From assembly GCA_003136575.1 (NCBI GenBank), contig PLEX01000214.1, positions 1 through 43,029 on the forward strand: 43,029 bases of DNA. The letters run 5' to 3'. The position numbers and the translations under genes are program-made. The notes beneath the pieces were generated by a model, which was not told where the DNA came from, did no database searches, and saw only the letters and a program-made list of their open reading frames with translations. Positions 6,284 through 21,616 of the stretch are shown here, one piece after another. Position 1 is the first letter of the stretch, and the number at the start of each line of letters is the position of its first letter. Source of the DNA: Bryobacterales bacterium. GTDB taxonomy: Bacteria; Acidobacteriota; Terriglobia; Bryobacterales; Bryobacteraceae.

Positions 6284-6950
6284 GGTGCATAAGGGCGAAA
6301 GCGCCCGCCATATTCAGGCGATGAGCTTTGGCGCAGCCGTTCCCGCGCTGAGTTCCGTTACCCCGGTTCCCGCGGCCAACGAGCCGGCGAAAACCCCGGA
6401 AAAGGCGGGCCCGAGTGAAGAGCATTCGATCTTGCTGGACAAAATAGCCGCCCTCGAAAACGAAGTGGTCACGGTCCGGCGGGAAGCATTTGAAGCGGGC
6501 CATAGTCAGGGTGAGCAAAAGGCGCGGGCGGCCGTTGCGCCCGTGATCGAGCGCATGAATGCAACGGTTGCCGAACTGGTCAATATGCGGCCCGATCTCC
6601 GGCGTCGCGCGGAGAAGGATGCGGTCGGACTCGCTTTGCAGATTGCCCGGCGTGTGCTCCACCGCGAGTTGAGCGTCGATTGCAATGCGCTGAACGCGTT
6701 GGCGAGGGTCGTTTTCGACCGCGTGGCGCGCGCTGAATCGTGGCAATTAACGGTACACCCTCAGTTCGCCGACGCGATTCGCGGTTCGCTTCCCGCGGCC
6801 AGTCTGAGCAAAGTGCGGGTCGAGGCCGACCCCTCCTGTGCGCCGGGTACTCTGGTCGCCCGCTGCGCCGAGGGTGTGATCGATGCTTCAGTCGATAGTC
6901 AGCTGTCCGAAATCACCCGCGGTCTGGCGGACAGGCTGACCAGAAAATGA
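6273..6950 (+). CDS. fliH: Flagellar export ATPase regulator FliH
   Basis: FliH is the peripheral stator that holds the FliI ATPase at the export gate and inhibits it in solution. The product has 225 residues: a disordered Ala/Pro N-terminus, a charged coiled segment (about 48-90, LLDKIAALENEVVTVRREAFEAG) and the globular C-terminal domain (about 105-222), with ALQIARRVLHRELSVD and SWQLTVHPQFADAI matching the FliH/HrpE/YscL family. The assignment also rests on position directly before fliI. The start overlaps the end of fliG. Confidence 0.88.
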   Translation: MLSKVHKGESARHIQAMSFGAAVPALSSVTPVPAANEPAKTPEKAGPSEEHSILLDKIAALENEVVTVRREAFEAGHSQGEQKARAAVAPVIERMNATVAELVNMRPDLRRRAEKDAVGLALQIARRVLHRELSVDCNALNALARVVFDRVARAESWQLTVHPQFADAIRGSLPAASLSKVRVEADPSCAPGTLVARCAEGVIDASVDSQLSEITRGLADRLTRK

Positions 6951-6960
6951 CCGCCGGAAA

Positions 6961-8331
6961 GTGACAATGCCGCAGGCCGCATCCCGTGATATTCCGCGTC
7001 CTCCCCGCTCCGTTGACGGCGACCTCGACTTCAGCCAGTTCACCGCCATTCTCGACAGGATCGATCCAATCTGCATGGCGGGGGAAGTCGTCGAACTGGT
7101 TGGCCTGCTGGTTGAATCCCGCGGACCATCGGTGGCAGTGGGCGATTTTTGCGAAATCCGTACGCGTTCCGGGAAAGGGATCCGTACCCAGGTTGTCGGC
7201 TTCCGCGACGGCAGGGTGTTGTCGATGCCGCTTGAGGAAACCGGCGGACTCAGCCTGGGCGACTCCATTGTGGCCCGGGGCGGGGAAGCCACCGTCGACG
7301 TCTCGCCGCAATTGCTTGGCCGGGTGCTCGATGGCTTCGGCGCGCCCATGGACGGGGGGCCGCATATCCCCGTGCTGGAAACCCGGCCGCTCCATTCCGC
7401 GCCGCCAAATCCGCTCGAGCGCGAACACATCAGCGAGAAGCTGATCACCGGCATTCGCGCCATTGACGGATTGCTTCCCTGCGGCAAAGGGCAGCGCATC
7501 GGCATTTTCGGAGGCAGCGGAGTGGGAAAAAGTACGTTGCTGGGTTCGATGGCGCGCTCCAGTTCGGCGGGCGTTAATGTCATCGCTCTGATCGGGGAAC
7601 GCAACCGTGAAGTTCGCGAGTTTCTGGAACACGATTTGGGTCCGGAGGGAATGCGCCGCTCGGTCGTTATTGTGGCGACATCCGACAGGCCCGCCCCCCT
7701 TCGCGTCCGGGCCTGCTTCGTCGCGCTCGCCATCGCCGAGTATTTTCGCGACCGCGGCGAAGATGTGCTTCTCGTGATGGATTCGATTACTCGTCTCGCG
7801 ATGGCGCAGCGGGAAATCGGTCTGGCGGCGGGCGAACCTCCCAGCCAGAAGGGCTACACGCCTTCCGTATTCAGCCTTCTGCCCAAAGTCTGCGAGCGGG
7901 CCGGCAACTTCAGCGTTGGTTCGATCACGGCATTCTTCACCGTCCTGGTCGAGGGCGACGACTTCAACGAGCCGATCTGCGACGCCGTGCGCGCGATTCT
8001 CGACGGCCATATTACTCTGTCGCCGGACCTCGGCTCGGCGGGGCACTACCCCGCAATACAGATACTCGACTCCGTTAGCCGTCTGCAGTCGAAGCTGGCG
8101 ACGCCGCAGGAGTCGGAATCGGCCCGCCGAATCCGCGAGGCGCTCTCGCTCTATCGCCAGTCCGAAGATCTTATCAACCTCGGAGCGTACGTTTCGGGTT
8201 CCAATGTACGGCTCGACTCAGCGATCCGTTCGCGCGAAGAGATCATGAAGTTTCTGCGGCAGAAACCCACAGAGATATCGACGGGCGCGGATACGGCGAA
8301 GCGCCTGGAAGCCCTGGCGGGCGGCGTCTAA
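6961..8331 (+). CDS. fliI: Flagellum-specific export ATPase FliI
   Basis: FliI hydrolyses ATP to help unfold and deliver flagellar substrates and is homologous to the F1 beta subunit. The 456 residues carry a Walker A motif GGSGVGKS at about 184-191, a Walker B region DVLLVMDSITR near 268 and the downstream GLAAGEPPSQKGYTPSVFS stretch typical of type III export ATPases. The start is GTG at 6961, with an in-frame ATG two codons later as the alternative. The gene lies 10 bp after fliH and 16 bp before fliJ. Confidence 0.97.
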   Translation: MTMPQAASRDIPRPPRSVDGDLDFSQFTAILDRIDPICMAGEVVELVGLLVESRGPSVAVGDFCEIRTRSGKGIRTQVVGFRDGRVLSMPLEETGGLSLGDSIVARGGEATVDVSPQLLGRVLDGFGAPMDGGPHIPVLETRPLHSAPPNPLEREHISEKLITGIRAIDGLLPCGKGQRIGIFGGSGVGKSTLLGSMARSSSAGVNVIALIGERNREVREFLEHDLGPEGMRRSVVIVATSDRPAPLRVRACFVALAIAEYFRDRGEDVLLVMDSITRLAMAQREIGLAAGEPPSQKGYTPSVFSLLPKVCERAGNFSVGSITAFFTVLVEGDDFNEPICDAVRAILDGHITLSPDLGSAGHYPAIQILDSVSRLQSKLATPQESESARRIREALSLYRQSEDLINLGAYVSGSNVRLDSAIRSREEIMKFLRQKPTEISTGADTAKRLEALAGGV

Positions 8332-8347
8332 GGCCAGGGCGCGCCAG

Positions 8348-8872
8348 ATGAGGGCCTTTCACTTCAAACTCGATCCGGCGCTCCGCTGGCGTGAAACCCA
8401 GCTCCGCCTCGAACGGGAGGCCGTCTCGCGAGCCGCGAATCAGGTTACGGCCGTTCAGTCGGAGTTGATAGCCAAACATAACGAACTCAGATCCGGTTCT
8501 TCGCAGTTGATAACGGCTGGCAGTACCGCATTCGGATCCTGGGCCGCCTACGTCGAACGCAGCCGCCGCAGGATCCGGCTCCTCGAAGAACAGTTGAAGC
8601 AGGCCAGAAAAGCGCTCGCGATCCAGACGCAGAAGATGGTTGACGCTCACCGGAAGCTGCGTATCCTTGAAAATCTGAAGCGGGAAAATCGCGCCCTTTG
8701 GGAGAAGGAACTGGATCGCGAAACCGAGGCGTTTGCCGCGGAGGCCTTCCTCGCCCGGCTGTCGCGCGACTCCGGAGCCCCGGAAGCGCGCGGCCGCCGC
8801 GCTTCATCCGATTCCGACACACATGGGACAGCCATCTCGCGCGCTACAATCGAGAAGCGGATGGGCGCGTAG
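8348..8872 (+). CDS. fliJ: Flagellar export protein FliJ
   Basis: FliJ is the coiled-coil stalk that enters the FliI hexamer, analogous to the gamma subunit of F1. The 174-residue product begins with the usual FHFKLDPALRWRE motif followed by a long Arg/Glu/Gln-rich coiled coil to about residue 140. The last ~35 residues (from about SRDSGAPEARGRR) are a disordered extension beyond the usual family length. The stop codon TAG lies inside the tRNA-Arg gene, so the two genes overlap by 10 bases. An earlier true end is not possible because the frame has no other stop. Confidence 0.88.
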   Translation: MRAFHFKLDPALRWRETQLRLEREAVSRAANQVTAVQSELIAKHNELRSGSSQLITAGSTAFGSWAAYVERSRRRIRLLEEQLKQARKALAIQTQKMVDAHRKLRILENLKRENRALWEKELDRETEAFAAEAFLARLSRDSGAPEARGRRASSDSDTHGTAISRATIEKRMGA

Positions 8873-8939
8873 CTCAGTTGGATAGAGCACCGGCCTTCTA
8901 AGCCGGTGGTCGCAGGTTCGAATCCTGCCGCGCCTACCA
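8863..8939 (+). tRNA. tRNA-Arg (anticodon TCT)
   Basis: The 77-nt sequence folds as a complete cloverleaf. The acceptor stem GGGCGCG pairs with CGCGCCT (first pair G-U). The D arm is GCTC/GAGC. The anticodon stem CCGGC/GCCGG encloses loop CTTCTAA with anticodon TCT. The T arm is GCAGG-TTCGAAT-CCTGC. The discriminator is A and CCA is encoded. It decodes AGA/AGG arginine codons. Its first ten bases are also the end of fliJ. Confidence 0.96.
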
Positions 8940-8989
8940 AACCTCAGCCCGGATACCCCGCACGAAGACTCGACGCAAGGTCTACCGTC

Positions 8990-9994
8990 TCAGGTCCAGT
9001 CGATTACGGCCTTGACAATCCCCGCTTCGCGGTGCAGCCACGCCGGAAAACGCTCGTGCATGATGCTGCGCGGGGCGCATTCCGTCGGCCACGGCGAAAC
9101 GTCGATCTTGCCGCTTTCCATCAGATCCAGCACGCGATGGTGCTCCGGCGGCGTACTGTTGCGGCTCGCCAGAATCGTTGCTTCGCGGCGATGAAGATCC
9201 GGATCGAACAACGATATATGGTCGTTAATCAGCCCGACAAAGATCAGCTTGCCACCCTGCTCGAGCAACTGAATCGATTGCTCCATCGACCCCCGATCTC
9301 CCGTGCAGTCGAACACGAGCATCGACGGCTCCTCCTGGCGCGCCTCGTTCTGCGAAGGATAGTACCGGGACAGCCGGTTATGCCGGGCCGCGAACTCCAG
9401 CCGCTCTGGCATTTTTTCCACGACTCCGATGTCGGCGCCGGCAAGCCTCAGAAACTCGATCACCGAAAGTCCGATCGGTCCCGCGCCGACAACGATGGCG
9501 CGGTCTCCGGCCATTGCCGCCGAGCGGCCGACCGCGTGGATACCGACTCCCAGCGTCTCCACCAGCGGAATCTGCACGGACGGCAGTTTCTCGCACTTGT
9601 ACATTTGTTTCGCCGGCAGTACGATGCGTTCTCTCATGCCGCCATCGGTGTGGACTCCGATCACGCACATTTTCGCGCAGCAGTTGGAGCGCCCGCGCGA
9701 ACAGGCCGCGCAAGAGCCGCACGTCATGTATGGATTCACAGCGCAGCGATCGCCCGACAGGAAGCCTTCAACGCCCTCTCTGGCCTCGATCACCTCGACC
9801 GCCAGCTCGTGGCCGAGAATGCGCGGATAACTGAAGAACGGCTGCGTCCCCTCAAACGCGTGAAGATCTGTCCCGCAGACTCCTACCATCAAAACGCGAA
9901 CCAGCACTTCGCCCGGGCCCGGAGCCTCCGGGGGCGTCGTTCCGGAATGGGCGAATCGGCCAGGCTGTTCGAGTGTGACTGTATCCATGGTCAT
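8990..9994 (-). CDS. Zinc-binding medium-chain alcohol/polyol dehydrogenase
   Basis: The 334-residue product is an NAD(P)-dependent medium-chain dehydrogenase. The GroES-like domain has the catalytic zinc ligands C40 (VGVCGTD) and H62-E63 (GHE) and a structural-zinc lobe with four to five cysteines (about 92-106). The Rossmann domain has VVGAGPIGLSV near residue 168. The pattern resembles L-galactonate, threonine or sorbitol-type dehydrogenases, but the substrate cannot be told from sequence. It is transcribed toward the tRNA gene and is followed upstream, on the same strand, by a secreted ThuA-like gene 150 bp away, so the two may be co-expressed. The start is ATG, with a second Met at codon 3. 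Confidence 0.88.
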   Translation of the reverse strand: MTMDTVTLEQPGRFAHSGTTPPEAPGPGEVLVRVLMVGVCGTDLHAFEGTQPFFSYPRILGHELAVEVIEAREGVEGFLSGDRCAVNPYMTCGSCAACSRGRSNCCAKMCVIGVHTDGGMRERIVLPAKQMYKCEKLPSVQIPLVETLGVGIHAVGRSAAMAGDRAIVVGAGPIGLSVIEFLRLAGADIGVVEKMPERLEFAARHNRLSRYYPSQNEARQEEPSMLVFDCTGDRGSMEQSIQLLEQGGKLIFVGLINDHISLFDPDLHRREATILASRNSTPPEHHRVLDLMESGKIDVSPWPTECAPRSIMHERFPAWLHREAGIVKAVIDWT

Positions 9995-10144
9995 TTGGAC
10001 AACTTACCAGACACGAAGCGGCCGCTGCGTACCTGCCCGTGTTCCGGCGCGAACTCATTGCGTCCTGACTGCGGAAGGATCCGTCGGACCGCGAGATACC
10101 CGCTCGTCGACGCGGCCACGGAAAGATTAAGCCGCTGGCCAGCT

Positions 10145-11128
10145 TTACTGCGCCCGGCCGGCTCCAATACCCATTCCGCCGCTTCCTCCGCGGCCACCCC
10201 GTCCACCGCTTCCTCCGCGGCCCCCGCGCCCGCCGGCGGGCGGCACGTAACTTACCAGTTCGTCAACCGGCTTCTTCGCCGCCCACGCTATTCCCCGAAG
10301 GAGTGTTTTCTGTATCTCGGGAAGGGCGAAGTCGGTGTACGTATGGCCCTGCATCCACACGAAAGCACGGGCGGGCTGGCCACCCGGAAGCGTGTGTTCG
10401 TACGTCCACATCTGCGGCACAATCTCGCCTTTATGCGTGCCAGCGCTGGGTGTCCCCGCGATCTCAGCATTGAGCAGAACGTGGATGCCGGGGTCTTTCG
10501 TCCATGTCATCAGGAAGAACGCTTCATCGTCGGGCAGCGTCATGTCGGTCATGTCCTTCATAATCGGATTGGCCTTGTCCACGACGGTGTACGGAATCGG
10601 CGCATCCAGCGTAAAATTGGTTTCACCGTGCTTCTTCGCGCCCCCCGTGAAAGTGGTGGCCCAATAGGCAGGGTCGGGTCCGCACAGGGAGTCATGAAAG
10701 CTGACGATTCCTCCGCCGCGCTTAACGTAGGCCTCCAGAACGGCCTTTTCGGCGTCGTCGATGTACGGCGCATCGCCCTTGTAAACGACTATAACGTCGG
10801 TATGCTCCAGATCCGCGGCGCTCGGCGCGTGCAGCGCGCCATCGACGACCGCCCCGTGTTCCGTGAGAACCTTGCTCCAGTCGGCGAGAAACTGGGGATA
10901 GTCGTGCTGGCCTGCGCCGTGCGACTTAAGCCCGCCCCAGATGTAGATGTGCATGCCGTTGACATTCTGTCCCGGCGTTGTCGGTACGCCTCCGCGCCCT
11001 CCCGCATTCTGAGCAATGGCGGATTGCGGCTGCGCTGCCATGCCCACGAACAAGATCGATAGAGTGCCGAGAGCGAAACCTATCCCCACTCGAACACCAC
11101 GGAAATTCTGTCTTTTTTTCACAATCAC
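10145..11128 (-). CDS. Secreted ThuA-domain protein with Gly/Arg-rich tail
   Basis: The 327-residue product starts with a basic stretch and a hydrophobic signal segment (about residues 14-38, ending near SAIAQ), so it is probably exported. The ThuA (trehalose-utilisation-like, glutamine amidotransferase-fold) domain spans about 55-285, with YIWGGLKSHGAGQHDYPQF, VYKGDAPYIDDAEKAVLEAYVKRGGGIVSFHDS and a YEHTLPGGQPARAFVWMQGH end. The biochemical function of this family is unsettled; roles in sugar catabolism have been proposed. The last ~30 residues are GGRGG/GGSGG repeats. It may share a transcript with the downstream dehydrogenase. Confidence 0.85.
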   Translation of the reverse strand: MIVKKRQNFRGVRVGIGFALGTLSILFVGMAAQPQSAIAQNAGGRGGVPTTPGQNVNGMHIYIWGGLKSHGAGQHDYPQFLADWSKVLTEHGAVVDGALHAPSAADLEHTDVIVVYKGDAPYIDDAEKAVLEAYVKRGGGIVSFHDSLCGPDPAYWATTFTGGAKKHGETNFTLDAPIPYTVVDKANPIMKDMTDMTLPDDEAFFLMTWTKDPGIHVLLNAEIAGTPSAGTHKGEIVPQMWTYEHTLPGGQPARAFVWMQGHTYTDFALPEIQKTLLRGIAWAAKKPVDELVSYVPPAGGRGGRGGSGGRGGRGGSGGMGIGAGRAQ

Positions 11129-11771
11129 CGCCTCTTTGCGTCTATGGAACCGACTCGGTCCACCATTGATCTTATCTCAAGCGACCCTGGCTCAAAACGG
11201 CGTGCCGCGCGACTACCGGCTACGCGCGGCGATTTGCCACCCGGTAATGCCTTCTGGTTTGCACAAACTGCTTTGTATCAGATGGCTTGTCGCAGGCGGC
11301 AGTTCGAGGCGAACGGATATCTGCGTCGTCGCCATCGCGCCATCTATCATGGCGCACACGCGCAGGGTCCACGCCGCACGGCGTTTCGCGCATTGTCATC
11401 ACTGCCTGCCTGGCGTCGCGGCGCCGGTGCGCTCCGGGCAGCATGCGTATCGGACTAGCGAGTCGCCGGGCAAACGAAGTCACGTGAGTTCAATGCCGCG
11501 ACAGCCGGATTTGGACTCCCGCTCGTTTCGACCTTCACATACTCGCCTCTTGTCCTCACGGCGACTATTGTGTCGGGCTGGTTACCGTAATGCCCTATAG
11601 TCTCAAACTGCCTGAAGGGGCCGCAGCTGGCTTCGGGCCGCGAGCCGGTTTCGATTCCGTGACGAAATCAAACCTCCCGGACTTGATTCTGATGTATGCG
11701 ATTGCATGCGCAGCAGGAGAGCGCACGTGTTACTAAGTATGTGTTACTATTTGTGCACCGTCAGTGATCCC
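11129..11771. other. Gene-free region upstream of the sigma factor operon
   Basis: No frame in these ~640 bases gives a recognisable product. The longest open frames are Arg/Ser/His-rich, lack family motifs and look like chance ORFs. The left side must hold the promoter of the divergent ThuA gene. The right side, with a direct repeat, must hold the promoter of the sigma-kinase operon. A degraded gene cannot be excluded. Confidence 0.5.
11727..11749 (+). promoter_or_regulatory. Direct repeat GTGTTACTA x2 before the sigma factor gene
   Basis: Two exact copies of GTGTTACTA begin 14 bases apart, at 11727 and 11741, 22 bases before the preferred ATG. The position suits an operator or an unusual promoter element for autoregulation. 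The regulatory role is inferred from position alone. Confidence 0.4.
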
Positions 11772-12356
11772 ATGGAGAATCCCGAGGGAGAAATCACGCT
11801 GCTTCTGCGCCAATGGCGGGATGGCAGCCGCGAAGCCGAGAACGAGCTGTTCGAGCGGGTAATGCCCAACCTGCTCCAGTTAGCTCATAGTCTGATGCGG
11901 CGCGAGCGGCAGGACCATTCCCTCCAGGCAACGGAACTCGTCGACCAGATTTATTTCCGCATGGTCGCCGCCAGGGATCGCGACTGGCAGAGCCGCAAGC
12001 ATTTCTTCGCCATAGCTGCGAGAGCCATGCGAAGGCATTTGATCGACCACGCGCGCGCCAGACCCGACGCGAAGTTCGTCGCGCTGGAAGACCTTGAAAA
12101 CGCTCTGCCGGCAGGCCGCGGCAAAGTCGAAGTAGCCGTCGCCGTGGACCGCTTGCTGGACGGTCTGTCGGAATCGCGCCCGGAGTGGTGCACTGTCGTG
12201 GAGATGAAGTTTTTTCTGGGCTTTACCGACGAAGAGACGGCTCAGGCGACCGGAGTGAAGGTCCGAACCGTGCAACGCAACTGGAGCGACGCGCGCCAAT
12301 GGTTGTTTACGCGCATCGCGTCCCCGGAGTCCGACGGTGTCCAAAGCCCAGGATGA
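11772..12356 (+). CDS. ECF-type RNA polymerase sigma factor (TIGR02999-like)
   Basis: The 194-residue product has a sigma-2 region (about residues 25-95) with LQATELVDQIYFRM and WQSRKHFFAIAARAMRRHLIDHARA, the signature of the TIGR02999/ECF-like family common in Acidobacteria and Planctomycetes. The sigma-4 region (about 118-178) has VVEMKFFLGFTDEETAQATGVKVRTVQRNW as its helix-turn-helix. The frame is open from 11706, but the ATG at 11772 gives an N-terminus that aligns with the family and leaves the direct repeat outside the gene. No anti-sigma gene is next to it. The downstream gene is a Ser/Thr kinase that overlaps it by 20 bases, which suggests control by phosphorylation. Confidence 0.9.
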   Translation: MENPEGEITLLLRQWRDGSREAENELFERVMPNLLQLAHSLMRRERQDHSLQATELVDQIYFRMVAARDRDWQSRKHFFAIAARAMRRHLIDHARARPDAKFVALEDLENALPAGRGKVEVAVAVDRLLDGLSESRPEWCTVVEMKFFLGFTDEETAQATGVKVRTVQRNWSDARQWLFTRIASPESDGVQSPG

Positions 12357-15096
12357 CGATTCCGTCATGAGTCTGGTGGAACTGGCGATGGGCCGGCCGC
12401 CGGAAGAACGCGAAGCTTTTCTGCGCGCCGCGAGCGCGGGCGACGAGGAGTTATTCCGAGTGGCTTGGGAGTATGTGCAATGGAACCACCGCATGGGGGA
12501 TTTCCTCGCAGTTCCGTTGTGCGAAGAATTGAGGGTTCGCCAGTCCCTTCCGGGCGAACCCATCGATGACCACGCCGCCGCCCCCGGGGAGTCTTTCTTC
12601 GATCCGGGTGATAAATTGTCGAGCCGTTTCCGGATAGTACGGGAGGTTGCGCGGGGCGGCATGGGGATCGTTTACGAAGCGCACGACGAAAAACTGGATC
12701 GCCGCATTGCGCTGAAGTGCGCAAGAAGCGGATTTCAGAAGCGTCTGCCGCCGGAGGTTCGCCACGCCAGCGAAATCACCCACCCGAACGTATGCCGTAT
12801 TTTCGAGATACACACTGCCACAACCCGCGGTGGTGAAGTGGATTTCTTCACCATGGAGCTTCTGCAGGGGGAGACCCTTCGCGTCCGGCTCGCCGAAGGT
12901 CCGCTGCCAGAGTCCGAAGCCGTTGCCATCGGCAGCCAGATCGTCGCTGGCGTGGCTGAAGCGCATCGCCGCGGCGTCGTGCATGGCGACCTGAAAAGCA
13001 ACAACGTGATTCTCGCGCGCAATCCGGATGGGAGTATCCGCGCCGTGGTTACCGATTTCGGGCTGGCGCGCGGCCCCGTCGGCCAGGTGGAAGCATCCGG
13101 GGGTCACTCCGGTAAAGGTCACGACGCGGCTGAACAAGCTAACGCTGTAGGCCTGACTCGGGCCAGCCAAGCCGGGGGAACGCCTGGTTATATGGCGCCC
13201 GAGCTATGGAAAGGCGAACGGCCCACTATCGCTTCGGACGTCTTCGCACTCGGGGTGATTCTGTATGAGTTAGTGGCGAATCGCCGGCCGTACCCGCCGG
13301 ATTTGTCGTGGGAGGACCGCATCAGACCGCCGGCCACGGTGAATCATCCGTGGAACCCGATTCTGCAGCGTTGTCTGCGTCCCGCACCCGAGGCGCGTTT
13401 CCGCAATGCGGGTGAAGTGGCTGCCGCGCTCGAACCATCGCATTCGCGGCGATGGTGGATCGGTGTGGCGGCGGCGATTGCCCTCTCTGCGGTTTCCGGT
13501 TGGGCGACCTATCAACGGGCGGTTGGCCCGAAAGAGACGATCCGGCTGGCGATGCTGGCGCTCCAGCCCGATCCTGGCGCGCCGGGAACATACGATGCGC
13601 ACCTCGCGGAAACGGTTTCCCGCGCCGCCGCGGCGCAATTCGCAAAATTGAACGGTGGCGAGCGAGCGCGATTCTCGGTTGTCCCGTGGAGCGATGTGAT
13701 CGGTCGGCGCATCGACAGTGTCGACAAGGCGCGTGCGAAACCGATTGGCGCCACTGACGTTGTACGTGGAAGCATAGCGTGGGTCAACGGCCAGGTGGAA
13801 TTGCATGCGTACGTGGCCGGCGAACATTCCGCCGAATGGTCCGCAACTTACAATCCGGGTGAAGCCGAGCGATATGCGCCGGCGGCAATCGGCGGCATGG
13901 TTACCTCCACCCTGCGTCTCGATCCTCTGCGGACTCCGCTGAACGCGCGGGCCGCTGGAGATTATGCCGAGGGGCTGCGCCTCGCGCAACGGGACTCCAC
14001 GTTTGCCGACGCGCTTCGGGCATTTGAAAGAGCCGTGAACGCCGATGCCGACTCACCATTGACGTGGGCTGGCCTGGCGGAAGCACAGTGGTACAGGTAC
14101 CACTCTATGAATGACGCAAAATGGCTGGAACGTAGTTCCGAGTCGCTTCGACAGGCGAGGAACCGCAACCTCGATCTGGCTGCCGTACATCGGGTGAACG
14201 GACTGCTGCTGAAAACCAGGGGCCTTTACGAGCAAGCCGAAACGGAGTACCTGAGAGCGATCGAACTGGAGCCGAAAAATGCCGACGCGTACCGCCGGCT
14301 TGGGCAGGCCTATCACGCGGCCGGCAAAAAAGAGAAGGCGCTCGAAGCGTTTACGGCCGCGGTCCGCATCGAACCGGGCGATTACAGGATCTACGAGGCC
14401 CTCGGCTATTACTACGACCAGCAGGGCGACTACGTCAACGCGCTTCCGGAGTATGTGAAGGGCGTGGAACTGGCTCCCGACGAGGCGGACGCGCATCGAT
14501 TTCTCGGCACGGCGTACCGGCATCTCGAACGATACGATGAAGCGGAGCGGGAACTGCGCAAGGCCGTCCAGCTGGCACCGACTCCCGCGACCCTCGGTGC
14601 TCTCGCGGGAACCCTCATGTATCTGAAGCGGGACACGGAAGCGATCGGTTACTACAGGCAGGCGGTGGGTCAATCGCCTGACGATAGTCTGTGGTGGATG
14701 CCCCTCGGAATCGCCTATGCGAGGACCGGCCAGCCGGATGAGGCGCGCCGGGCATTTTCAAAAGGCCTGACAGCGGCGCAGAAGGCGCGGGATCCGCGCG
14801 ATGCCGAGACTCTGTCGCGCGTGGCTTTCTTTTCCGCGCGTCTGCACGACCCCGGACCCGCGCTGTTCGAAATCCGGAGCGCCCTTCAGCTGTCGCCGGA
14901 ATCCACAGCAGTCCAGGAGACGGCCGTCTGGACCTACCATGCGCTGGGTCGGGACGACGAGGCGATTAGAATACTCGAAACATCCGATCCCGACGTGTTG
15001 CGCGATGTTGCCTCGTGGCCGGACTTGGCGGGCTTGTGTCGGGATCCTCGCTTTAACGCTTTGATGCAGTCTCGAAATATACACGTCGGGAAATGA
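12337..15096 (+). CDS. Membrane Ser/Thr protein kinase with TolB-like region and TPR repeats
   Basis: The 919-residue product has a cytoplasmic kinase domain (about 98-365): glycine loop ARGGMGIVY at 105-113, lysine K127 (RIALKC), catalytic loop HGDLKSNN at 216-223, DFG at 240-242 and APE at 287-289. The residue before the catalytic Asp is Gly rather than Arg, so it is a non-RD kinase. One transmembrane helix lies at about 374-390. The outer part begins with a TolB/FlgO-like alpha-beta region (about 400-520, ATDVVRGSIAWVNGQVELHAYV), followed by around eight TPR motifs (about 560-900, for example NADAYRRLGQAYHAAGKKEKALEAF). Translation starts at GTG inside the sigma gene. The layout suggests a receptor kinase acting on the sigma factor. 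Confidence 0.93.
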   Translation: MSKAQDDDSVMSLVELAMGRPPEEREAFLRAASAGDEELFRVAWEYVQWNHRMGDFLAVPLCEELRVRQSLPGEPIDDHAAAPGESFFDPGDKLSSRFRIVREVARGGMGIVYEAHDEKLDRRIALKCARSGFQKRLPPEVRHASEITHPNVCRIFEIHTATTRGGEVDFFTMELLQGETLRVRLAEGPLPESEAVAIGSQIVAGVAEAHRRGVVHGDLKSNNVILARNPDGSIRAVVTDFGLARGPVGQVEASGGHSGKGHDAAEQANAVGLTRASQAGGTPGYMAPELWKGERPTIASDVFALGVILYELVANRRPYPPDLSWEDRIRPPATVNHPWNPILQRCLRPAPEARFRNAGEVAAALEPSHSRRWWIGVAAAIALSAVSGWATYQRAVGPKETIRLAMLALQPDPGAPGTYDAHLAETVSRAAAAQFAKLNGGERARFSVVPWSDVIGRRIDSVDKARAKPIGATDVVRGSIAWVNGQVELHAYVAGEHSAEWSATYNPGEAERYAPAAIGGMVTSTLRLDPLRTPLNARAAGDYAEGLRLAQRDSTFADALRAFERAVNADADSPLTWAGLAEAQWYRYHSMNDAKWLERSSESLRQARNRNLDLAAVHRVNGLLLKTRGLYEQAETEYLRAIELEPKNADAYRRLGQAYHAAGKKEKALEAFTAAVRIEPGDYRIYEALGYYYDQQGDYVNALPEYVKGVELAPDEADAHRFLGTAYRHLERYDEAERELRKAVQLAPTPATLGALAGTLMYLKRDTEAIGYYRQAVGQSPDDSLWWMPLGIAYARTGQPDEARRAFSKGLTAAQKARDPRDAETLSRVAFFSARLHDPGPALFEIRSALQLSPESTAVQETAVWTYHALGRDDEAIRILETSDPDVLRDVASWPDLAGLCRDPRFNALMQSRNIHVGK

Positions 15097-15109
15097 AAGA
15101 GAAAACCAA

Positions 15110-16150
15110 ATGGCGATCGAACTGAGCATTCGGGTCGGGAACGGCGGAATCAGTATCGCGGTAGGCGACGGCCAGGCGCGTGCCACCGGTCAGGGCGGAA
15201 AAGGGCCGATTGATGGCCCCGGGCCCGGGAGTGGAGGCCCCGTCAGCGCGAGCGGAGATGGTTGCGGTTGCGGGACGACGGTCATTGGCCCGATTGTGGT
15301 CGACGGCTCCGCTATGCAGGCCGGATTTGGGCAGAGCGGGCAAGGCGGAAAAGGACCCATAGACGGTCCCGGACCGGGCGGATCGGGACCCATAGATGGT
15401 CCAGGGCCGGGCGGATCAGGTCCCATAGATGGTCCCGGGCCGGGAGGGGCCGGACCCGGCGGCGGACGCGGATCCTGCGGCGGTACGACGGTGATCGGCC
15501 CGATCGTGATTACGGGCTGCTGCCTGGGTTCCCGGTCTGCGTCAAACTCGGGAACGTCCGACTGCAACATAGGCTCCCAGGAAGTCGCGCTCGACCCGCC
15601 GCAAGATCAATTTGGAAGCAGCGCCGCAACAGCGCCGGCAAACTCCTTATTGCCCTTTGCGATGGAACCCCAACAGCAGAACAATTGGTGCTGGGCGGCG
15701 GTGGCAGTATCCGTTAATAATTTCCTCGATCCGCGGACGCCTCCCACGTGGAGCCAGGGCCGGCTCGCTGCCGATCTGCTGAAGAATCCGTCTTGTAGTC
15801 TGACGCCTCCTGCGACCGCCTGCAATGTGCCGGAAGATCTCCAGGGCGCGCTGGGGATCACGGGAAATCTGAGGCGGAACGGATATATGACAGAAACACA
15901 CCTCGCCTTTGACAGCATCTGCAATTGGGTGAACTCGCACCTCCCGGTGGGCGCAAGGATCAAGTGGCGGGGTCCCGGCGCGCACTTCATCGCCCTTGAT
16001 GGATACCGGGTCACGAGTTCCGGCCGCCGATTGGTTCATGTGCAGGACCCGGATGCCACCACTTCCCCGGGTTTCATCGATTACGAGGAGCTTGTGGAAA
16101 ATTACAGGAACGACGGGTCTTGGGTCGACACTTACCTGGTGATAGCTTAA
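15110..16150 (+). CDS. Papain-like (C70/C39-like) cysteine peptidase with Gly/Pro repeat N-terminus
   Basis: The 346-residue product has two parts. Residues 1-140 are low-complexity: GGKGPIDGPGP occurs at 29-39 and 79-89, the latter followed by two further GSGPIDGPGP units, and each block is followed by a TTVIGPIV motif (56-63 and 126-133) near a Cys/Gly cluster. Residues ~180-346 form a papain-fold peptidase similar to the AvrRpt2 (C70) and C39-like families: PQQQNNWCWAA with nucleophile C194 and oxyanion Gln just before it, H292 (GAHFIALDGY), and D313 (HVQDPD). All catalytic residues are present, so activity is likely. No signal peptide is evident. It lies 13 bp after the kinase gene with an AAAGAGAAA leader. 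Substrate unknown. Confidence 0.82.
   Translation: MAIELSIRVGNGGISIAVGDGQARATGQGGKGPIDGPGPGSGGPVSASGDGCGCGTTVIGPIVVDGSAMQAGFGQSGQGGKGPIDGPGPGGSGPIDGPGPGGSGPIDGPGPGGAGPGGGRGSCGGTTVIGPIVITGCCLGSRSASNSGTSDCNIGSQEVALDPPQDQFGSSAATAPANSLLPFAMEPQQQNNWCWAAVAVSVNNFLDPRTPPTWSQGRLAADLLKNPSCSLTPPATACNVPEDLQGALGITGNLRRNGYMTETHLAFDSICNWVNSHLPVGARIKWRGPGAHFIALDGYRVTSSGRRLVHVQDPDATTSPGFIDYEELVENYRNDGSWVDTYLVIA
15344..15442 (+). repeat. Three tandem 33-bp coding repeats in the peptidase gene
   Basis: Three consecutive in-frame 33-bp units (15344, 15377, 15410) encode GG(K/S)GPIDGPGP. A fourth, isolated copy sits at 15194-15226. The copies differ mostly at third codon positions, which points to an older expansion kept by selection on the peptide. 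Confidence 0.9.
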
Positions 16151-16185
16151 CGCCCGCTGGCAACGACGTCCACGGAGGGATAAAC

Positions 16186-17082
16186 ATGGCAAAGAGAAAA
16201 TCGGGGACAGCGCCGGGAGCGAAGCAAGGGTCGGCGCAGGCAGAAACAGTACCGGCGCCAGTGACAGCCTCGTCGGCGCACGCATCGGCATCCGCGGCTG
16301 CGCCAGCGATGGCGGCGTCAACACCTGCGCCACCAACGCCGCCGCCCGCGCCTTCGCCGACGCCGACATCTCCCACAGCCGCGCCGACAGGACGCCCGAC
16401 GAAAACGCTGATCAAACCCGCTGCCCCGGCTGCCTGTCTGGCGGCTTTTCGCAACGGACTACCTTGCTATCTGTCCGGTGGCGACGCCGGAACTGTGGCC
16501 CGCGAGGCCCATGTCGGCGGCACGCCGTCTATTCCGAGCCTGGCGGATATTGGCATAGTCGACGGCCCAAACCCCGGTTCTCCTCACTTTCTAATGACGC
16601 TGCAGGCATTTGCGCTGAGTCTTGCGGATGCGGCCAACGGTACCCGAGTCGTATCCCCGGTGAGCGTCGGCTGGAAGTTTTTCGCGGGCAATGCGCAGCG
16701 CTCGAGCGCGATCGTGGGTAGGCTAGTCCAGCGTCCGCCCGCCCAGGTCTGGAAGCTGGTTGCCGTGCATTACGGCGATCTGGTCGCGGAAACGTTGAAC
16801 GCGATCGTTACATCGCCCAATCTGAACGCGCCGCCGCCGCAGGTTCAGGGGGAGGACTACGAATTACGCATGCTGGCGATCCACGGCATGAACACGGAAG
16901 TATTCTGGCTGATGGCTCACAAAGCAGGCCTGCCCGACTTCGTTATTCCGGTTTCCTCTGCGCCTCTTCAGCCCGGCATTTCGAGCGCCTCCACCGAGCC
17001 GGTGGAGATGGCGAATTATCTGGCGTCGATTCAGGCGCAGGCCACCAGTCTGCTAACGATGAATCCCACGCACGGAGCGTAG
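16186..17082 (+). CDS. Hypothetical protein with Ala/Pro-rich linker, partner of the peptidase
   Basis: I do not recognise the family. The 298-residue product starts with a basic MAKRKSG segment and a disordered Ala/Pro/Thr/Ser linker to about residue 72. A folded domain follows (about 80-285), with CLAAFRNGLPCYLSGGDAG, PNPGSPHFLMTLQAFALSLADAANG, AQVWKLVAVHYGDLVAETLNAIV and YELRMLAIHGMNTEVFWLMAHKAG. No signal peptide or membrane helix is evident. I chose the ATG at 16186 because GGAGGGA lies six bases upstream; the frame extends to 16120 but would overlap the peptidase gene. It is the last gene of the four-gene unit. The linker architecture is like that of its neighbour, so the two products may work together as partner, substrate or inhibitor. 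Confidence 0.75.
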   Translation: MAKRKSGTAPGAKQGSAQAETVPAPVTASSAHASASAAAPAMAASTPAPPTPPPAPSPTPTSPTAAPTGRPTKTLIKPAAPAACLAAFRNGLPCYLSGGDAGTVAREAHVGGTPSIPSLADIGIVDGPNPGSPHFLMTLQAFALSLADAANGTRVVSPVSVGWKFFAGNAQRSSAIVGRLVQRPPAQVWKLVAVHYGDLVAETLNAIVTSPNLNAPPPQVQGEDYELRMLAIHGMNTEVFWLMAHKAGLPDFVIPVSSAPLQPGISSASTEPVEMANYLASIQAQATSLLTMNPTHGA

Positions 17083-17097
17083 GCTCGGATCCGAGCC
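17082..17097. terminator. 16-bp perfect palindrome between convergent genes
   Basis: GGCTCGGATCCGAGCC is fully self-complementary and begins at the last base of the preceding stop codon. It lies between two converging operons, where a bidirectional terminator would be expected. There is no T-run on either side, so the call rests on position and symmetry. Confidence 0.35.
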
Positions 17098-17151
17098 GCC
17101 GACCGGTCAACCACACACGGCGCACCGGCTCCGATCCGCGCTTCGTAGCGG

Positions 17152-18483
17152 CTATCTCAGCAGCCCGGCGGCATATTGAAGCGCCGAGTACAAGGTCTGA
17201 TAGTCGTACTTCGCATTAAGATTCTCAATCTCGGCTTCGGTCAGATTCAGCTGCGCCTGGGTCAGTTCAACGATCGACGACAAGCCCAGTCCGTAGCGCC
17301 CCTGGGCCAGATCCAGCGCCAGTGCCGCCTGACGGAGAAACTGCGCGGTCACATCCATTCGCTGGTACGCGTCGTTGGCATCGGCCCACGCGACGCGAAC
17401 ATCCCGGAGAATTTGCTGTTGCTCGGCGCGAAGGCGCTGATCCGACTCAAGCGCTTTTTCGTTCGCGGCCTCGCGCCGCGCCGAGTAAAGGTGCCCGTTG
17501 AAAACCGGGATGCTGACGTTTGCCGCGATCCCTTCGTATTCGATTGGGATCGGTGCCGACGCCGGCGTGTGGATGTACGGAATCAAGCCGGCTACCGCTT
17601 CGGCGGTCACGGTCGGCCTCGACAGATCTTTCTCCGCTTCCGCAAACCGGTAGGCCGCGTCGCGAGAAAGCCGTAACCCGGCAAGCTCGGGCCGATTGTC
17701 GAGTGCCTGGGCGACGAGCTCTTCCGCACCGCCGGGCGGTCCGGCGGGAAGCGGCTCATCGGACAGCCTGTAGCTCGCAGGCTGGTCCGAACCAATTGCC
17801 CTTCCCAGTTCTGCTAGTCCCTGCTGCACGGCACTTTGAGCGCGAAGCAAAAGCAGCTTCGCTTCGGACACGTTCACTTCGGCAAAGCTGACGTCCAGCT
17901 GCGACTTCAACTGGTTCCTGGCCAGCTCCGTAACCTGATCGCTCAGCAACTGGCGCGCTCCGACCGTTTCCTGCGCGACCTTCACAACTGCCTGGGCGTT
18001 GAGAACGCCGAAATACGCGCGATTGACCTGAAGCAGCACGTCGTAACGGGTAGCCACGGAATTCTGCGCCGCGGCTTGCGCCTCCAGCCGCGAACTCGCG
18101 ACCAGATTCCGGGTGCGGCCGTAATCGGTAATCAATTGACGCGCAACGACGCCTTGCCCGATCCGGTCGTAAAGCCGGGAATCGGTCAGATCTCCCGCAC
18201 CTATACGCGCCAGATTGTTCGCCTGTGAGGCGGTCACATCTCCATTCACGAGCGGATAAAGCGCCGAGCGGCTTTCGACGATCTGCTGATTGGCGTAGTT
18301 GACTTCGTGCTGTGCGGCCTGGATCTGCGGATGATTCTGAATCGCCAGGCTTTCGGCTTGCTGGAGCGTGAGCACGGGGGGGGCGGCTGCGGGCGTCTGC
18401 GCGGACCCGAGGCGCAGTCCAACGGCGGCCAGCGTCACGAACCGGACGTACTTACGAAACCTGAGGCTGTTGAACCAGATCAC
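17152..18483 (-). CDS. Outer membrane efflux protein (TolC/OMF family)
   Basis: The 443-residue product forms the outer-membrane channel of a tripartite efflux pump. There is an N-terminal export signal (about residues 1-28, ending near LRLGSAQ). The duplicated TolC-family helical repeats contain LTLQQAESLAIQNHPQIQAAQHEV near the start and LDLAQGRYGLGLSSIVELTQAQLNLTEAEI in the second repeat. It is the last gene of a minus-strand operon. Its start overlaps the end of the permease gene by 32 bp, indicating coupled translation. The family call is firm; the exported substrate is unknown. Confidence 0.93.
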   Translation of the reverse strand: MIWFNSLRFRKYVRFVTLAAVGLRLGSAQTPAAAPPVLTLQQAESLAIQNHPQIQAAQHEVNYANQQIVESRSALYPLVNGDVTASQANNLARIGAGDLTDSRLYDRIGQGVVARQLITDYGRTRNLVASSRLEAQAAAQNSVATRYDVLLQVNRAYFGVLNAQAVVKVAQETVGARQLLSDQVTELARNQLKSQLDVSFAEVNVSEAKLLLLRAQSAVQQGLAELGRAIGSDQPASYRLSDEPLPAGPPGGAEELVAQALDNRPELAGLRLSRDAAYRFAEAEKDLSRPTVTAEAVAGLIPYIHTPASAPIPIEYEGIAANVSIPVFNGHLYSARREAANEKALESDQRLRAEQQQILRDVRVAWADANDAYQRMDVTAQFLRQAALALDLAQGRYGLGLSSIVELTQAQLNLTEAEIENLNAKYDYQTLYSALQYAAGLLR

Positions 18484-21400
18484 TCTTTCTCTCCTTCCTG
18501 CCGTAAACGAGCAGATACGCGGCCGGGACGATAAAGACCGTCAGCAGCACGGACGAAGTCAGGCCCCCGATAATCGCCCGGGCCATCGGCGTATACTGTT
18601 CCCCGCCTTCCCCGAGCTTCATCGCCATCGGAACCATACCGATGATCGTCGCGAGCGAAGTCATCAGAATCGGCCGCAGCCGCACCCGGCAAGCTGTAAC
18701 CACCGCATCGGTAACCGACATGCCCTGTTCCCTCAGCTTATGGGCAAAATCCACGATCAGAATACTGTTGGAATCGGCGATGCCTATCAGCATGAGAACT
18801 CCCATGAGCGACATCACATTCAGAGTCGTGTGAGTCAGCGGCAGAATGATGAAGACGCCGACGAAGCCCATCGGGATCGCCAGCATGATCAGGAACGGGT
18901 CCACGAACGATTTGAACTGGGCGACCAGGATCAGGAACAGCAGAATAAACGAAATGCCGAAGCCGAGTCCGAAGCTCTTAAACGATTCATCCATGCTGTT
19001 GACCATGCCCCGAAGCGTGACGCGAATGTTGGGGGGAAGCCTGGCATCCGAGATGGTCTTCAGAATTCCATCGCGGAGCTTGCCCAGATCCTCGCCTTTG
19101 GGAGTGACGTAAATATCGACGACACGCTGGATCTGATAGTGATCGACCTCAGTGGGCGAGGTCAGGTTCACCAGCTTCACCACGGAATCAAGCGTCGTCG
19201 GCTGCTTCAAATTCGACGCCCGCAACGGGATCTGCTTCAGGTCGATCAGATTATGAATTGCGTTTTTCCCGTGTTCCTCATACTGCACGCTGAGGAAATA
19301 GTCGTTGCCCGTTTTGTAATCCACCCAGTAGTTGGGCGCGATCATGATGTTGGAATTCAGCGCCGTGATGACGTTGTCGACGACGTCCTTCTGCGTCAGG
19401 CCGAGTTCCGCGGCATGGACGCGATCGATGTCCATGCGGATGGAGGGATAGTTCATATCCTGCGGGATATAGATCTGGTCGGCGCCGGGAAGACGGCGAA
19501 TGCTGTCGGCGAGTTTCTGAGCGGTCGAATAAGTCAGATCGAGATCGCGCGTGTTGACCTGTACATCGATGGGAGCGGGTTGGCCCTGGTTGAGTATCGC
19601 GTCCTGCATGGAACCCGTCTGAAAAAACGTACGGACATCGGGGAAATCCGCCCTCATCTTCGCCTTCACGCGGTCCATGTAGTCGAAACTGCTGCCTGCG
19701 TGGCCTTGCTTCAGCGCCACTTGTATGGTGGCGGTATACATGCCGGAATTGGTTGTGTACAGCGCGGAAATATCGTTGACGACGCCGATATTCGAGAGAA
19801 TCATCTTCAGATCTCCCGGGGACACGATGCCGCGGATCAGGGTTTCGATCTTCGCTACGTAATCGTTGGTGACTTCAATCCGCGTGCCGGTCGGAACTTT
19901 CAGGATTACGGTGAACTGGCCGGCATCGGTGCGAGGAAAAAACGCCAGCCCGAGCAGGGGATAGATCAGAATGCTGGCGGCGAAAACTCCCAACAGCGCC
20001 ACGAGCGTGAGAGCGGGAACCTTCAGCGCGCGGCGCACGGCCGCTTCGTAAACATTGAGAAGCTTATTGAACTGCCGGTTGAACCAGGCGTTGAAACCTT
20101 TGGCATCGTGCTGCTGTTCGGCATGGCCGGCCGGCATCGTCTTCAGGAATCTGGAGCAGAAGAGCGGAATCACAGTCATCGCCACAACAAAAGACGCCAT
20201 CAGCGACAGGCAGAAAGCCAGAGCGAGCGCGGAGAAAAGAAACTTACTCACGCCATAAAGGAGCGTGACGGGGAAGAAATCGACCACGTCCACCAATGTC
20301 GCGGCCAGCACCGCGAGGTTCACTTCGGCGCCGCCCCGCTCGGCCGCGACAGCCGCCGCGGTGCCCATTTCCAGATGCCGATAGATGTTCTCGAGCGAGA
20401 TGACGGAGTTGTCGATGACCCGGGACAAAGCCAGCGCGACGCCGCCCAGGATCATCGTGTTGATCGTGCTGTTCATCATGTAAAGAACGACGAGAGCGGC
20501 CAGGATCGAAATCGGAATAGACAGCAGGACCGCGCCGGTAGCCCTCACGCTTCCGAGAAACAGCAGGATCATGAGGCTCGTCAGGCCTAATCCAATAGCG
20601 CCTTCATGAAGGACTGTGCTCAGGGCGTTCTTGACGAAAATCGATTGATCGAAGACGACGTCGGTCTTCAACTGGGCGGGCATATCGAACAAATTCGCCA
20701 CCAGTTTTCGCACGTCCGCAACCACCTGAATCGTATTACTGTCGCCGCCCGATTTCATGATGGGAATATCTGCGGACTTCTGGCCGTCGATGCGCACGAT
20801 ATTGTATTGCAGTTGACTCGCGTCTTTCGCTTCGCCGATGTCGCCGATCGTGACCCAACTCGAACCGACGGTCTTGATCGGCACGCTGTTTAGGTCCTCG
20901 ACGTTCTTTACCAGGCTGTTCGAATACACGTAATAGTCGCCGGAACCAATCCTGACGTCGCCCGCGGGCAGGATCAGATTGCTGTTATTGAGCGCATCCA
21001 CCACGTCCATCGGGCTGAGCTGTCTGGAGAACAGTTTGTAAGGGTCGACATAGACCATCGCCTGGCGGTATTTTCCACCGAAGACCGCTGGAATTTCGGA
21101 ACCCTTCACGACCGCGATCTGGTTGCGGATCTGGAACTGGGCAAGATCGTGGAGCTGCGTCTCCGTCAGACCCTGGCCCGCGACCGTGACGAGGCACACG
21201 GGCAAACTGGATGCGTCGGACTTCAAAACGAGCGGAGGCAGCGTGCCAGGCGGCAGGCGTTTGAGATCGGCAAGGGCGAGATTCGACAACTGCGTGACGT
21301 CGGCATCCGAACTGGTTCCCGCCTGAAAATAAGCCTTGATGATGCTGACGCCCAGCAGAGAGCGGGACTCCATGTGATCGAGACCGCTGGCCTGAGTGAA

Positions 21401-21604
21401 GAAACGTTCGAGCGGGTTGGTGATGTCCACTTCGATGTCGCCCGGCGGCATGCCGCTGTAAAACGTCGCCACGACGACAACTGGCAGGTTGATCGGCGGA
21501 AACAAATCCACCGGCATTCGCGTGTAAGCGTTTATGCCAATCACGGCGAGAGCCAGGCAAATGACGACGATGAAATACGGATTGCGGATGGAAAATCGTG
21601 GCAT
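18452..21604 (-). CDS. RND efflux permease (inner membrane pump)
   Basis: The 1050-residue product has the full RND layout: TM1 at about 10-27, a first large periplasmic loop, helices TM2-TM6, the central duplication with a second loop, and TM7-TM12. The TM4 proton-relay region reads ALSRVIDNSVISLEN, so the position of AcrB Asp407 is D398 while that of Asp408 is N399; E405 is kept. A single-Asp relay is also known in CusA-type pumps. It is therefore probably active but not a plain AcrB copy. Drug, metal or lipid substrates cannot be distinguished. It lies 12 bp after the adaptor gene and overlaps the outer-membrane gene. Confidence 0.93.
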   Translation of the reverse strand: MPRFSIRNPYFIVVICLALAVIGINAYTRMPVDLFPPINLPVVVVATFYSGMPPGDIEVDITNPLERFFTQASGLDHMESRSLLGVSIIKAYFQAGTSSDADVTQLSNLALADLKRLPPGTLPPLVLKSDASSLPVCLVTVAGQGLTETQLHDLAQFQIRNQIAVVKGSEIPAVFGGKYRQAMVYVDPYKLFSRQLSPMDVVDALNNSNLILPAGDVRIGSGDYYVYSNSLVKNVEDLNSVPIKTVGSSWVTIGDIGEAKDASQLQYNIVRIDGQKSADIPIMKSGGDSNTIQVVADVRKLVANLFDMPAQLKTDVVFDQSIFVKNALSTVLHEGAIGLGLTSLMILLFLGSVRATGAVLLSIPISILAALVVLYMMNSTINTMILGGVALALSRVIDNSVISLENIYRHLEMGTAAAVAAERGGAEVNLAVLAATLVDVVDFFPVTLLYGVSKFLFSALALAFCLSLMASFVVAMTVIPLFCSRFLKTMPAGHAEQQHDAKGFNAWFNRQFNKLLNVYEAAVRRALKVPALTLVALLGVFAASILIYPLLGLAFFPRTDAGQFTVILKVPTGTRIEVTNDYVAKIETLIRGIVSPGDLKMILSNIGVVNDISALYTTNSGMYTATIQVALKQGHAGSSFDYMDRVKAKMRADFPDVRTFFQTGSMQDAILNQGQPAPIDVQVNTRDLDLTYSTAQKLADSIRRLPGADQIYIPQDMNYPSIRMDIDRVHAAELGLTQKDVVDNVITALNSNIMIAPNYWVDYKTGNDYFLSVQYEEHGKNAIHNLIDLKQIPLRASNLKQPTTLDSVVKLVNLTSPTEVDHYQIQRVVDIYVTPKGEDLGKLRDGILKTISDARLPPNIRVTLRGMVNSMDESFKSFGLGFGISFILLFLILVAQFKSFVDPFLIMLAIPMGFVGVFIILPLTHTTLNVMSLMGVLMLIGIADSNSILIVDFAHKLREQGMSVTDAVVTACRVRLRPILMTSLATIIGMVPMAMKLGEGGEQYTPMARAIIGGLTSSVLLTVFIVPAAYLLVYGRKERKSDLVQQPQVS

Positions 21605-21616
21605 GGTCTCGCCTGC

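Follow-up and report, generated by a model that had tools for sequence, protein, structure and literature searches.

Does a run of four co-directional genes for a sigma factor, a protein kinase, a cysteine peptidase and a protein of no described family represent one new bacterial system, and which of these genes form its core? This question is raised by positions 11,772 to 17,082 of contig PLEX01000214.1 (assembly GCA_003136575.1) from a Bryobacterales bacterium of the Acidobacteriota, and the whole analysed stretch of 43,029 nucleotides is referred to here as the window. A preliminary description made from the DNA letters had proposed a four-gene module composed of an extracytoplasmic function (ECF) sigma factor, a tetratricopeptide repeat (TPR) receptor kinase, a C70/C39-like peptidase and an unknown protein, hereafter the partner. 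Our analysis indicated that the peptidase and partner genes recur together across many bacterial groups, and that in the Bryobacterales the pair frequently stands behind a kinase gene and at some loci behind a sigma factor gene as well.

The recurrence of the pair was determined by scanning named genomes with the peptidase alignment, which returned 141 relatives; the 80 best matches were retained. These 80 loci (loci and genomes carry handles beginning with L and G) span Acidobacteriota, Pseudomonas, Methylobacterium, Rhizobium, Streptomyces, Mycobacterium, Anabaena, Xenorhabdus, Bacteroidota and others, and a partner profile recognised the next gene as the partner at 78 of them, the misses being L076, which lies at a contig end, and L045 of Flavobacterium. 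Relative to the stop codon of the peptidase gene, the partner start at these 78 loci falls between -23 and +30 bp, with a median of 12, where the start codon nearest +8 bp was taken and ATG was preferred. Addition of the other loci in hand and removal of duplicates gave 91 distinct peptidases at E ≤ 1e-12, 87 of them with a partner; L037, whose next gene is weakly related to the partner (75.7%, E 2.4e-5), and L269 joined the two misses above. Within the window's order, 257 genomes contained 27 peptidase places at E < 1e-17 and 6 weaker ones, and the partner profile gave 25 places, all of them adjacent to a strong peptidase place. Tabulation of gene neighbourhoods, the check suggested in the preliminary description, showed the last two genes recurring together with hardly any exceptions.

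At L281 (G452) the two genes are fused in frame into a single open frame of 432 amino acids. Pairwise distances of peptidases and partners were correlated among 47 representatives (r 0.55, with 0 of 2000 permutations as high), which at the level of sequence shows co-inheritance and not contact, and the partner was the more variable of the two, with a mean identity of 22% compared to 36% for the peptidase in the same representatives.

Several candidates for exceptions or further members of the pair were considered. A putative orphan partner in G146 contains an internal stop, matched partly through a low-complexity linker and is absent from the profile result, while that in G130 lies at a contig end where the peptidase is cut. 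A secreted relative from Streptomyces clavuligerus was rejected as a pair, as its peptidase is related (99.3%) and its neighbour is not recognisably a partner (0.2%). Lipoprotein-type peptidases at L269 (5535-6813) and L286 (reverse complement, 5462-6883) are each followed by a lipoprotein-type second gene, these being 44% alike; compared with the partner, of which they may be relatives, these neighbours gave 40.9% (E 2.8e-4), and 2.6% when a single sequence was used.

Records of mobile elements were surveyed with single queries. One Pseudomonas peptidase retrieved 0 phage records at E ≤ 1e-3 and 9 plasmid records at E ≤ 1e-8, and one Rhizobium partner retrieved 0 plasmid records at E ≤ 1e-3, a null result that reflects a limit of sensitivity because partners adjoin three of the nine plasmid peptidases. 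One partner gene searched at the DNA level gave 0 matches in E. coli genomes. In three annotated plasmid records, from Nocardia, Rhizobium and Burkholderia, the pair is annotated as 'papain-like cysteine protease family protein' and 'hypothetical protein', and the small Nocardia plasmid L121 also has a gene annotated as Pycsar effector family (1-587). Among other neighbourhoods, the Acidobacteriota loci L289 (G622), L290 (G493) and L291 (G514) have the gene order CHAT protease, unknown protein of ~300 amino acids, C39/C70-like peptidase and partner relative of ~200 amino acids. Downstream of the peptidase, L283 encodes a TPR-CHAT protein (7436-10501), and L052 (5216-6692) and L284 (7876-10501) encode TPR proteins cut by the sequence end.

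The linkage of the pair to kinase and sigma factor was narrower. Within the window's order the kinase lies just upstream at 19 of the 27 strong peptidase places (18 plus the partial kinase of L026), accompanied by the sigma factor at 8; another gene is upstream at five (G092, G141:C113, G132, G112 and G228), and the remaining three (G118, G130 and G205:C596) could not be judged because the contig ends. In the named genomes, a window-like kinase was directly upstream at 11 of the 80 loci, all titled Acidobacteria, Terriglobia, Bryobacterales, Bryobacteraceae, Solibacteraceae or Candidatus Sulfopaludibacter, and was lacking at the other 69, three of which have <1500 bp of sequence before the peptidase. 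Because so many loci lack an upstream kinase, the pair rather than the four-gene set is taken as the basic unit. The proposed module is nevertheless no local accident, since the pair recurs and the kinase and sigma factor repeatedly accompany it within the order; what did not hold is the kinase as part of a core. Homologues of the peptidase and partner lying without each other, or without the kinase pair, had been named as findings that would speak against the module, and the former were hardly seen while the latter are common.

Phylogenetic placement was in agreement with this distribution. In a peptidase tree of 67 sequences, reduced from 91 by dropping one short row and 23 Pseudomonas rows, the kinase label needed 3 changes compared to 16.6 when shuffled, and 16 of the 19 kinase-linked rows fell in one group with support of 88. 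The kinase tree, which covered 17 of the 19 cassette loci after the partial kinases of L026 and L027 were left out, contains a branch, with support of only 38, that has all 17 of these kinases on the same side. The kinase-linked form is compatible with a single capture in Bryobacterales. From the kinase counts and the tree placement it follows that the pair is more widespread than the switch.

The converse proposal, that this sigma factor is exclusive to the cassette, was ruled out by G051, in which a sigma factor of 62% identity is accompanied by a kinase and by a small gene unlike that of the cassette, the peptidase being absent; the situation is similar at five more kinase-bearing loci, where near relatives of the sigma factor occur without the pair. 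Sigma and kinase relatives without a peptidase at L239, L252, L255, L262, L263 and L270 are followed by a protein of 92-132 amino acids, two of which have a Gly-rich tail. Three kinase-less loci of the order encode a protein of outer-membrane type, judged by eye, before the peptidase (L033, 111-851; L036, 3393-5009; L267, reverse complement 1261-2952), and these three proteins had zero Pfam matches at E ≤ 0.05.

By its catalytic triad and its predicted fold the window peptidase is a papain-like cysteine peptidase. In an alignment of the window protein with 37 relatives (38 rows, alignment A4) the columns of Cys194 (15689-15691), His292 (15983-15985) and Asp313 (16046-16048) are invariant, and that of Gln188 (15671-15673) is at least 90% conserved. 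The full triad described earlier was thus recovered, although the window protein scored 14.6 bits as a whole and 16.9 bits by domain against Peptidase_C70 (PF12385), below the Pfam cut-off of 19. Some relatives reach this cut-off (for example L094 with 38.9 and L121 with 37.1); at E ≤ 0.1 all 38 alignment members matched PF12385 (best 7e-12) and 35 of the 38 matched C39_2. The AlphaFold2 model of the domain had a pLDDT (predicted local distance difference test) of 93.9, and a Foldseek search ranked staphopains 1-4 (top 1cv8, E 3.6e-6), two of these entries being complexes with staphostatin, and matched the Cpe1/Cpi1 entry 9l5u at E 1.8e-3 (TMt 0.60). Comparison of profile A4 with PDB sequences gave a weak match to 6mpz (E 0.019), and the Cpe1 entry was not among the two PDB sequences matched at E ≤ 1.

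A simple hydrophobicity scan over possible starts flagged none of 78 partners and only 3 of the 91 peptidase N-termini, those of L269, L062 and the window, so that most pairs look cytosolic; the flag in the window corresponds to an internal VIGPIVITGCCLG stretch. Some stand-alone peptidases carry extra repeats. Those of L095 and L107 are BTRD1, in Pfam a polyglycine hydrolase-like structural repeat, and those of L042, L121 and L122 look lectin-like by eye, Pfam giving them no lectin name.

The partner remains the unknown protein of the preliminary description, with zero Pfam or NCBIfam matches at E ≤ 1 for the window copy. When 43 partner members were compared with Pfam at the same threshold every matching row came from a single member only, and 0 of the 43 matched PHROGs. 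Residues 1-72 form an Ala/Pro-rich linker by eye. The AlphaFold2 model was fairly confident (pLDDT 83.1, pTM (predicted template modelling score) 0.81) and had no known fold, as Foldseek against PDB and BFVD gave zero matches at E ≤ 0.001; a cystatin row at E 0.48 was not significant and was not used, and staphostatin was not found among the 50 matches listed of 493. Of the roles proposed for it earlier (substrate, inhibitor or delivery partner), gene order and the precedents of the staphopains and Cpe1 favour, by analogy, that of an inhibitor or else of a stoichiometric partner, the Gly-rich protein described below being the more probable substrate.

Turning to the upstream genes, the assignments of an ECF sigma factor and a TPR receptor kinase agreed with the family matches in Table 1. 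The kinase has a HGDLKSNN catalytic loop, a DFG motif and a hydrophobic stretch between the kinase and TPR matches, all by eye; the TolB part previously ascribed to it found no counterpart, there being no TolB domain among the 25 Pfam families listed of 32. The sigma factor has a QATE motif in region sigma2.2 (residues 52-55), in which Thr54 (11931-11933) is a candidate phosphosite, and the motif Thr is retained in all 8 cassette-linked sigma factors in an alignment of relatives. Its family assignment is given by the TIGR02999 match, while its likeness to ECF43 comes from the motif and the adjacency of the kinase. The window's own genome contains 7 sigma matches.

Operon inspection also identified an element that the preliminary description had overlooked while listing the four genes correctly. 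A small Gly-rich open reading frame (ORF) lies between kinase and peptidase at all 19 kinase-linked loci. It is a separate ORF of 26-143 amino acids in 17, and the window and L038 have it joined to the peptidase, a fusion which suggests that the two belong together. The window element has the N-terminal part MAIELSIRVG, two VIGPIV elements and four G(K/S)GPIDGPGPG units, the first at 15197-15229 and the other three within 15347-15445. All 19 regions have at least two Gly-Gly (GG) pairs. A set-against-control count of GG-bearing regions was disregarded because its threshold was 2 for cassette regions and 3 for controls, and a repeat p-value has no meaning for the 6 of 17 regions that contain no repeat. 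By pattern count, a hydrophobic GPIVI-like element occurs in 8 of the 19 regions compared to 0 of 586 control proteins; 8 other regions have at least 15% Lys, and three have neither Lys enrichment nor the element. Identical 7-residue repeats within 60 residues were found in 10 of 19 regions compared to 6 of 446 controls. The unit itself varies by locus (NPSTR, GDPGGPNGS, TQGDPF, SGDKLDT, GPIDGPGPG and others), and in 11 of the 19 regions the units are flanked by or bear GG, such as GGGGNPSTR x3, where cleavage may take place.

The reading that we prefer, tentatively and with somewhat less than even confidence, is of a phospho-switched sigma factor controlling a cytosolic cysteine protease, a dedicated partner that holds this protease, and a Gly-Gly repeat protein that is its likely substrate or pro-region. 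The peptidase and the downstream protein would form a dedicated two-protein unit, in which the partner would bind the papain-like protease and most likely keep it in check, or else hold it active. In Bryobacterales this pair would have been placed behind one lineage of receptor-type kinase, with the ECF sigma factor at 8 loci, and the kinase would phosphorylate the sigma factor at Thr54 of QATE and so turn expression on, a mode of activation that is expected by analogy from knowledge of the family. The protease would then act on the Gly-Gly-rich protein encoded just before it. C39 peptidases and Cpe1 are precedents for Gly-Gly specificity, and because C39-type proteases of this fold cut after Gly-Gly the repeat protein is a likely substrate or pro-region here. 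Cleavage after Gly-Gly is suggested by the modelled fold and the Gly-rich neighbour, and from these sources we infer a possible inhibitory role for the partner, possible processing of the repeat protein and whatever output the system may have.

A number of observations weigh against this interpretation. Seven kinase-linked loci lack this sigma type even though the contig extends further upstream, and L284, from another Acidobacteriota genome outside the order, has a more distant sigma factor and a kinase ~380 bp upstream of the pair, so that the kinase and sigma linkage may have arisen more than once. The partner model resembles no known inhibitor, and the L281 fusion fits a structural subunit as much as an inhibitor. 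The Gly-rich ORFs were chosen by eye from forward frames, and their codon signal is weak or negative at some loci (L028 -0.10, L241 -0.09, L044 -0.02), so that some of them may not be translated. The density of GG is 6.1 per 100 residues in 17 regions compared to 0.9 in 101 further small proteins predicted at these loci, yet in 4 of these 17, the window included (10 vs 16.3), GG is no commoner than in composition shuffles. In favour of the interpretation, adjacent copies of the repeat unit are conserved in amino acids and strongly diverged at synonymous sites, with 93.8 synonymous against 22.2 amino-acid-changing substitutions (proportions pS 0.62 and pN 0.055). This comparison covers 11 of the 19 regions, three close relatives among them, and its units were selected for their amino-acid pattern, a choice that by itself makes pN lower. 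Five of these regions have 31 synonymous and zero amino-acid changes, and the high pS indicates that the copies are old and did not arise by fresh DNA slippage. A Gly-rich small gene was not noticed by eye before stand-alone peptidases outside Bryobacterales, among the sequence listed and with no search aimed at it, and the Gly-rich protein is therefore unlikely to be a general substrate of the pair.

The fusions could also be explained, although we think it fairly unlikely, if the protease needed the partner as a structural subunit or folding chaperone and the Gly-rich protein served only as a flexible linker or coat element. The natural single-ORF fusion at L281 is what a subunit might be expected to produce, and the joining of repeat and peptidase in the window and L038 is what a linker might; the amino-acid-level conservation of the repeat units argues against a linker, with the reservation that a structural repeat would be conserved too. 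The same repeats might instead be multi-copy peptide precursors, produced by the kinase and sigma switch and cut at their Gly-Gly borders by the C39-type protease while the partner guards the protease. If true, identical short peptides (NPSTR, GDPGGPNGS or GPIDGPGPG units) would be freed, with a sequence that differs by lineage, and the bacterial peptide system so formed would be of a new kind, having no transporter of its own. Export or modification genes, which would be looked for beside a multi-core peptide precursor, do not occur between sigma factor and partner in the window, and we regard this explanation as unlikely.

Two further explanations, both of which we judge unlikely, concern the target of the protease. 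It may be an antibacterial effector that cuts an essential protein of rivals, with the partner as immunity protein and the kinase and sigma factor timing release. Its gene order and fold are those of Cpe1/Cpi1 (9l5u; PMC12136450), and EcfK/PknS, with the same sigma motif, controls a type VI secretion system (T6SS) according to the available parts of PMC8999054 and PMC13147305; one family of partners across phyla is unlike the highly divergent Cpe1 immunity proteins of the available part of PMC12136450. DUF2169 and polymorphic-toxin genes lie close to one locus on a Burkholderia plasmid, and the spread across the order is patchy (30 of 257 genomes), but PAAR, VgrG, Rhs and CdiA carriers were not noticed by eye in the neighbourhoods listed, with no model search made. 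Orphan immunity genes are common, and against this the 257 genomes had zero partner places without a peptidase. Alternatively the protease may act within the cell that makes it, in a stress or death switch of the sort proposed for CHAT proteases, with the partner as regulator or subunit. A CHAT protease precedes the pair in three further Acidobacteriota (Pfam CHAT E 9e-38, 4e-37 and 5e-48), a relative of the partner (hhalign 95.5%, E 1.5e-8) is encoded after the CHAT-linked peptidase, few export signals were seen and L283 has TPR-CHAT downstream, though its peptidase has no partner match. A CHAT linkage was not noticed at the kinase-linked loci, which were inspected by eye and not searched for it, and the sigma factor, peptidase and partner had no PADLOC match at E ≤ 0.01; the window kinase matches kinase models of defence systems in PADLOC.

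The ORF check of the window placed all four genes on the forward strand (Table 1), and the coordinates agree with the spacing given earlier, with a 20 bp overlap of sigma factor and kinase, a 13 bp gap between kinase and peptidase and a 35 bp gap between peptidase and partner. A resistance-nodulation-division (RND) efflux set (OEP, ACR_tran and HlyD; 17152-22870, reverse strand) converges on the operon and forms its boundary. A direct repeat, GTGTTACTA x2 with 5 bp spacing, lies upstream of the sigma start at 11727-11749, and no such repeat was seen by eye at other sigma loci. A consensus scan of 11000-18600 gave 0 promoter-like sites where chance predicts 1.4, and 4 terminator-like sites where it predicts 6.8, and inspection by eye alone for a shared promoter upstream of the sigma factor provided no basis for any claim.

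Table 1. Features of the sigma-kinase-peptidase-partner operon, in window coordinates.
Feature	Position	Strand	Evidence or remark
ECF sigma factor, 194 aa	11772..12356	+	TIGR02999 E 6.6e-46, Sigma70_ECF E 2.6e-36
Ser/Thr kinase, 919 aa, GTG start	12337..15096	+	Pkinase E 2.6e-30, TPR_2 E 1.2e-30
Peptidase ORF (repeat element and peptidase domain)	15110..16150	+	
Gly-rich repeat element, fused to peptidase N-terminus, residues 1-165	15110..15604	+	Separate ORF in relatives
Papain-like (C39/C70-type) cysteine peptidase domain	15605..16150	+	Alignment, AlphaFold2, Foldseek
Partner protein, no described family	16186..17082	+	Linker 16186-16401, folded domain 16402-17079

Each part of this operon resembles something known, while no earlier account seems to exist of the combination, the partner family or the repeat protein; searches of open-licence papers showed none of these in the titles and abstract beginnings listed. 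The pair occurs across Pseudomonas, Streptomyces, Methylobacterium, Anabaena, Acidobacteriota and others, and no described function was found for it. By joining the pair to a kinase and sigma switch and a candidate substrate, the Bryobacterales operon makes switch, inhibition and substrate testable from one operon, and it may provide a handle on what some of the many sigma and kinase genes in these soil bacteria control.

Among known proteases, the staphopains are the best fold match of the window peptidase, and their inhibitor gene, encoding staphostatin, adjoins the protease gene. Staphopains differ in being secreted with a propeptide, and staphostatin is absent from the 50 matches listed for the partner model. 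The C39 double-glycine peptidases (LahT, ComA) share with the window peptidase the Cys-His-Asp triad plus Gln, and 6mpz is the weak profile match; unlike these, the window has no fused or adjoining ABC (ATP-binding cassette) transporter among its four operon genes. AvrRpt2 is a Peptidase_C70 member, the family that the alignment members match and whose cut-off the window protein does not reach, and no type III genes were noticed beside the operon. In its available part, a classification of papain-like proteinases (PMC10318531) mentions C70 and C39, places one further family close to both and names no such partner. Cpe1 cuts at double glycine and Cpi1 is its immunity protein, as stated in the accessible text of PMC12136450; there, too, a gene for a papain-like protease of similar fold is followed by that for its binding partner. 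Cpe1 is tied in that text to carriers of T6SS and contact-dependent inhibition (CDI) systems and to strongly diverged immunity proteins, in contrast to the single conserved family of the window partner.

The regulatory genes most closely recall the ECF43 pairs EcfP/PknT and EcfK/PknS, which likewise have adjacent sigma and kinase genes, as do the window and the 8 cassette loci with both. According to the available parts of PMC8999054 and PMC13147305, ECF43 sigma factors lack the DAED motif and are phosphorylated on a Thr by the adjacent kinase; sigma2.2 of the window factor also lacks DAED and has a Thr at the candidate phosphosite, and its QATE is identical to the motif of EcfK (PMC13147305, in part). 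In EcfK, Thr51Ala is still functional and a second site, Thr106, matters (same part of PMC13147305). Where T6SS genes come under EcfK/PknS, the window operon has none, and in their place are the protease, its partner and the repeat element.

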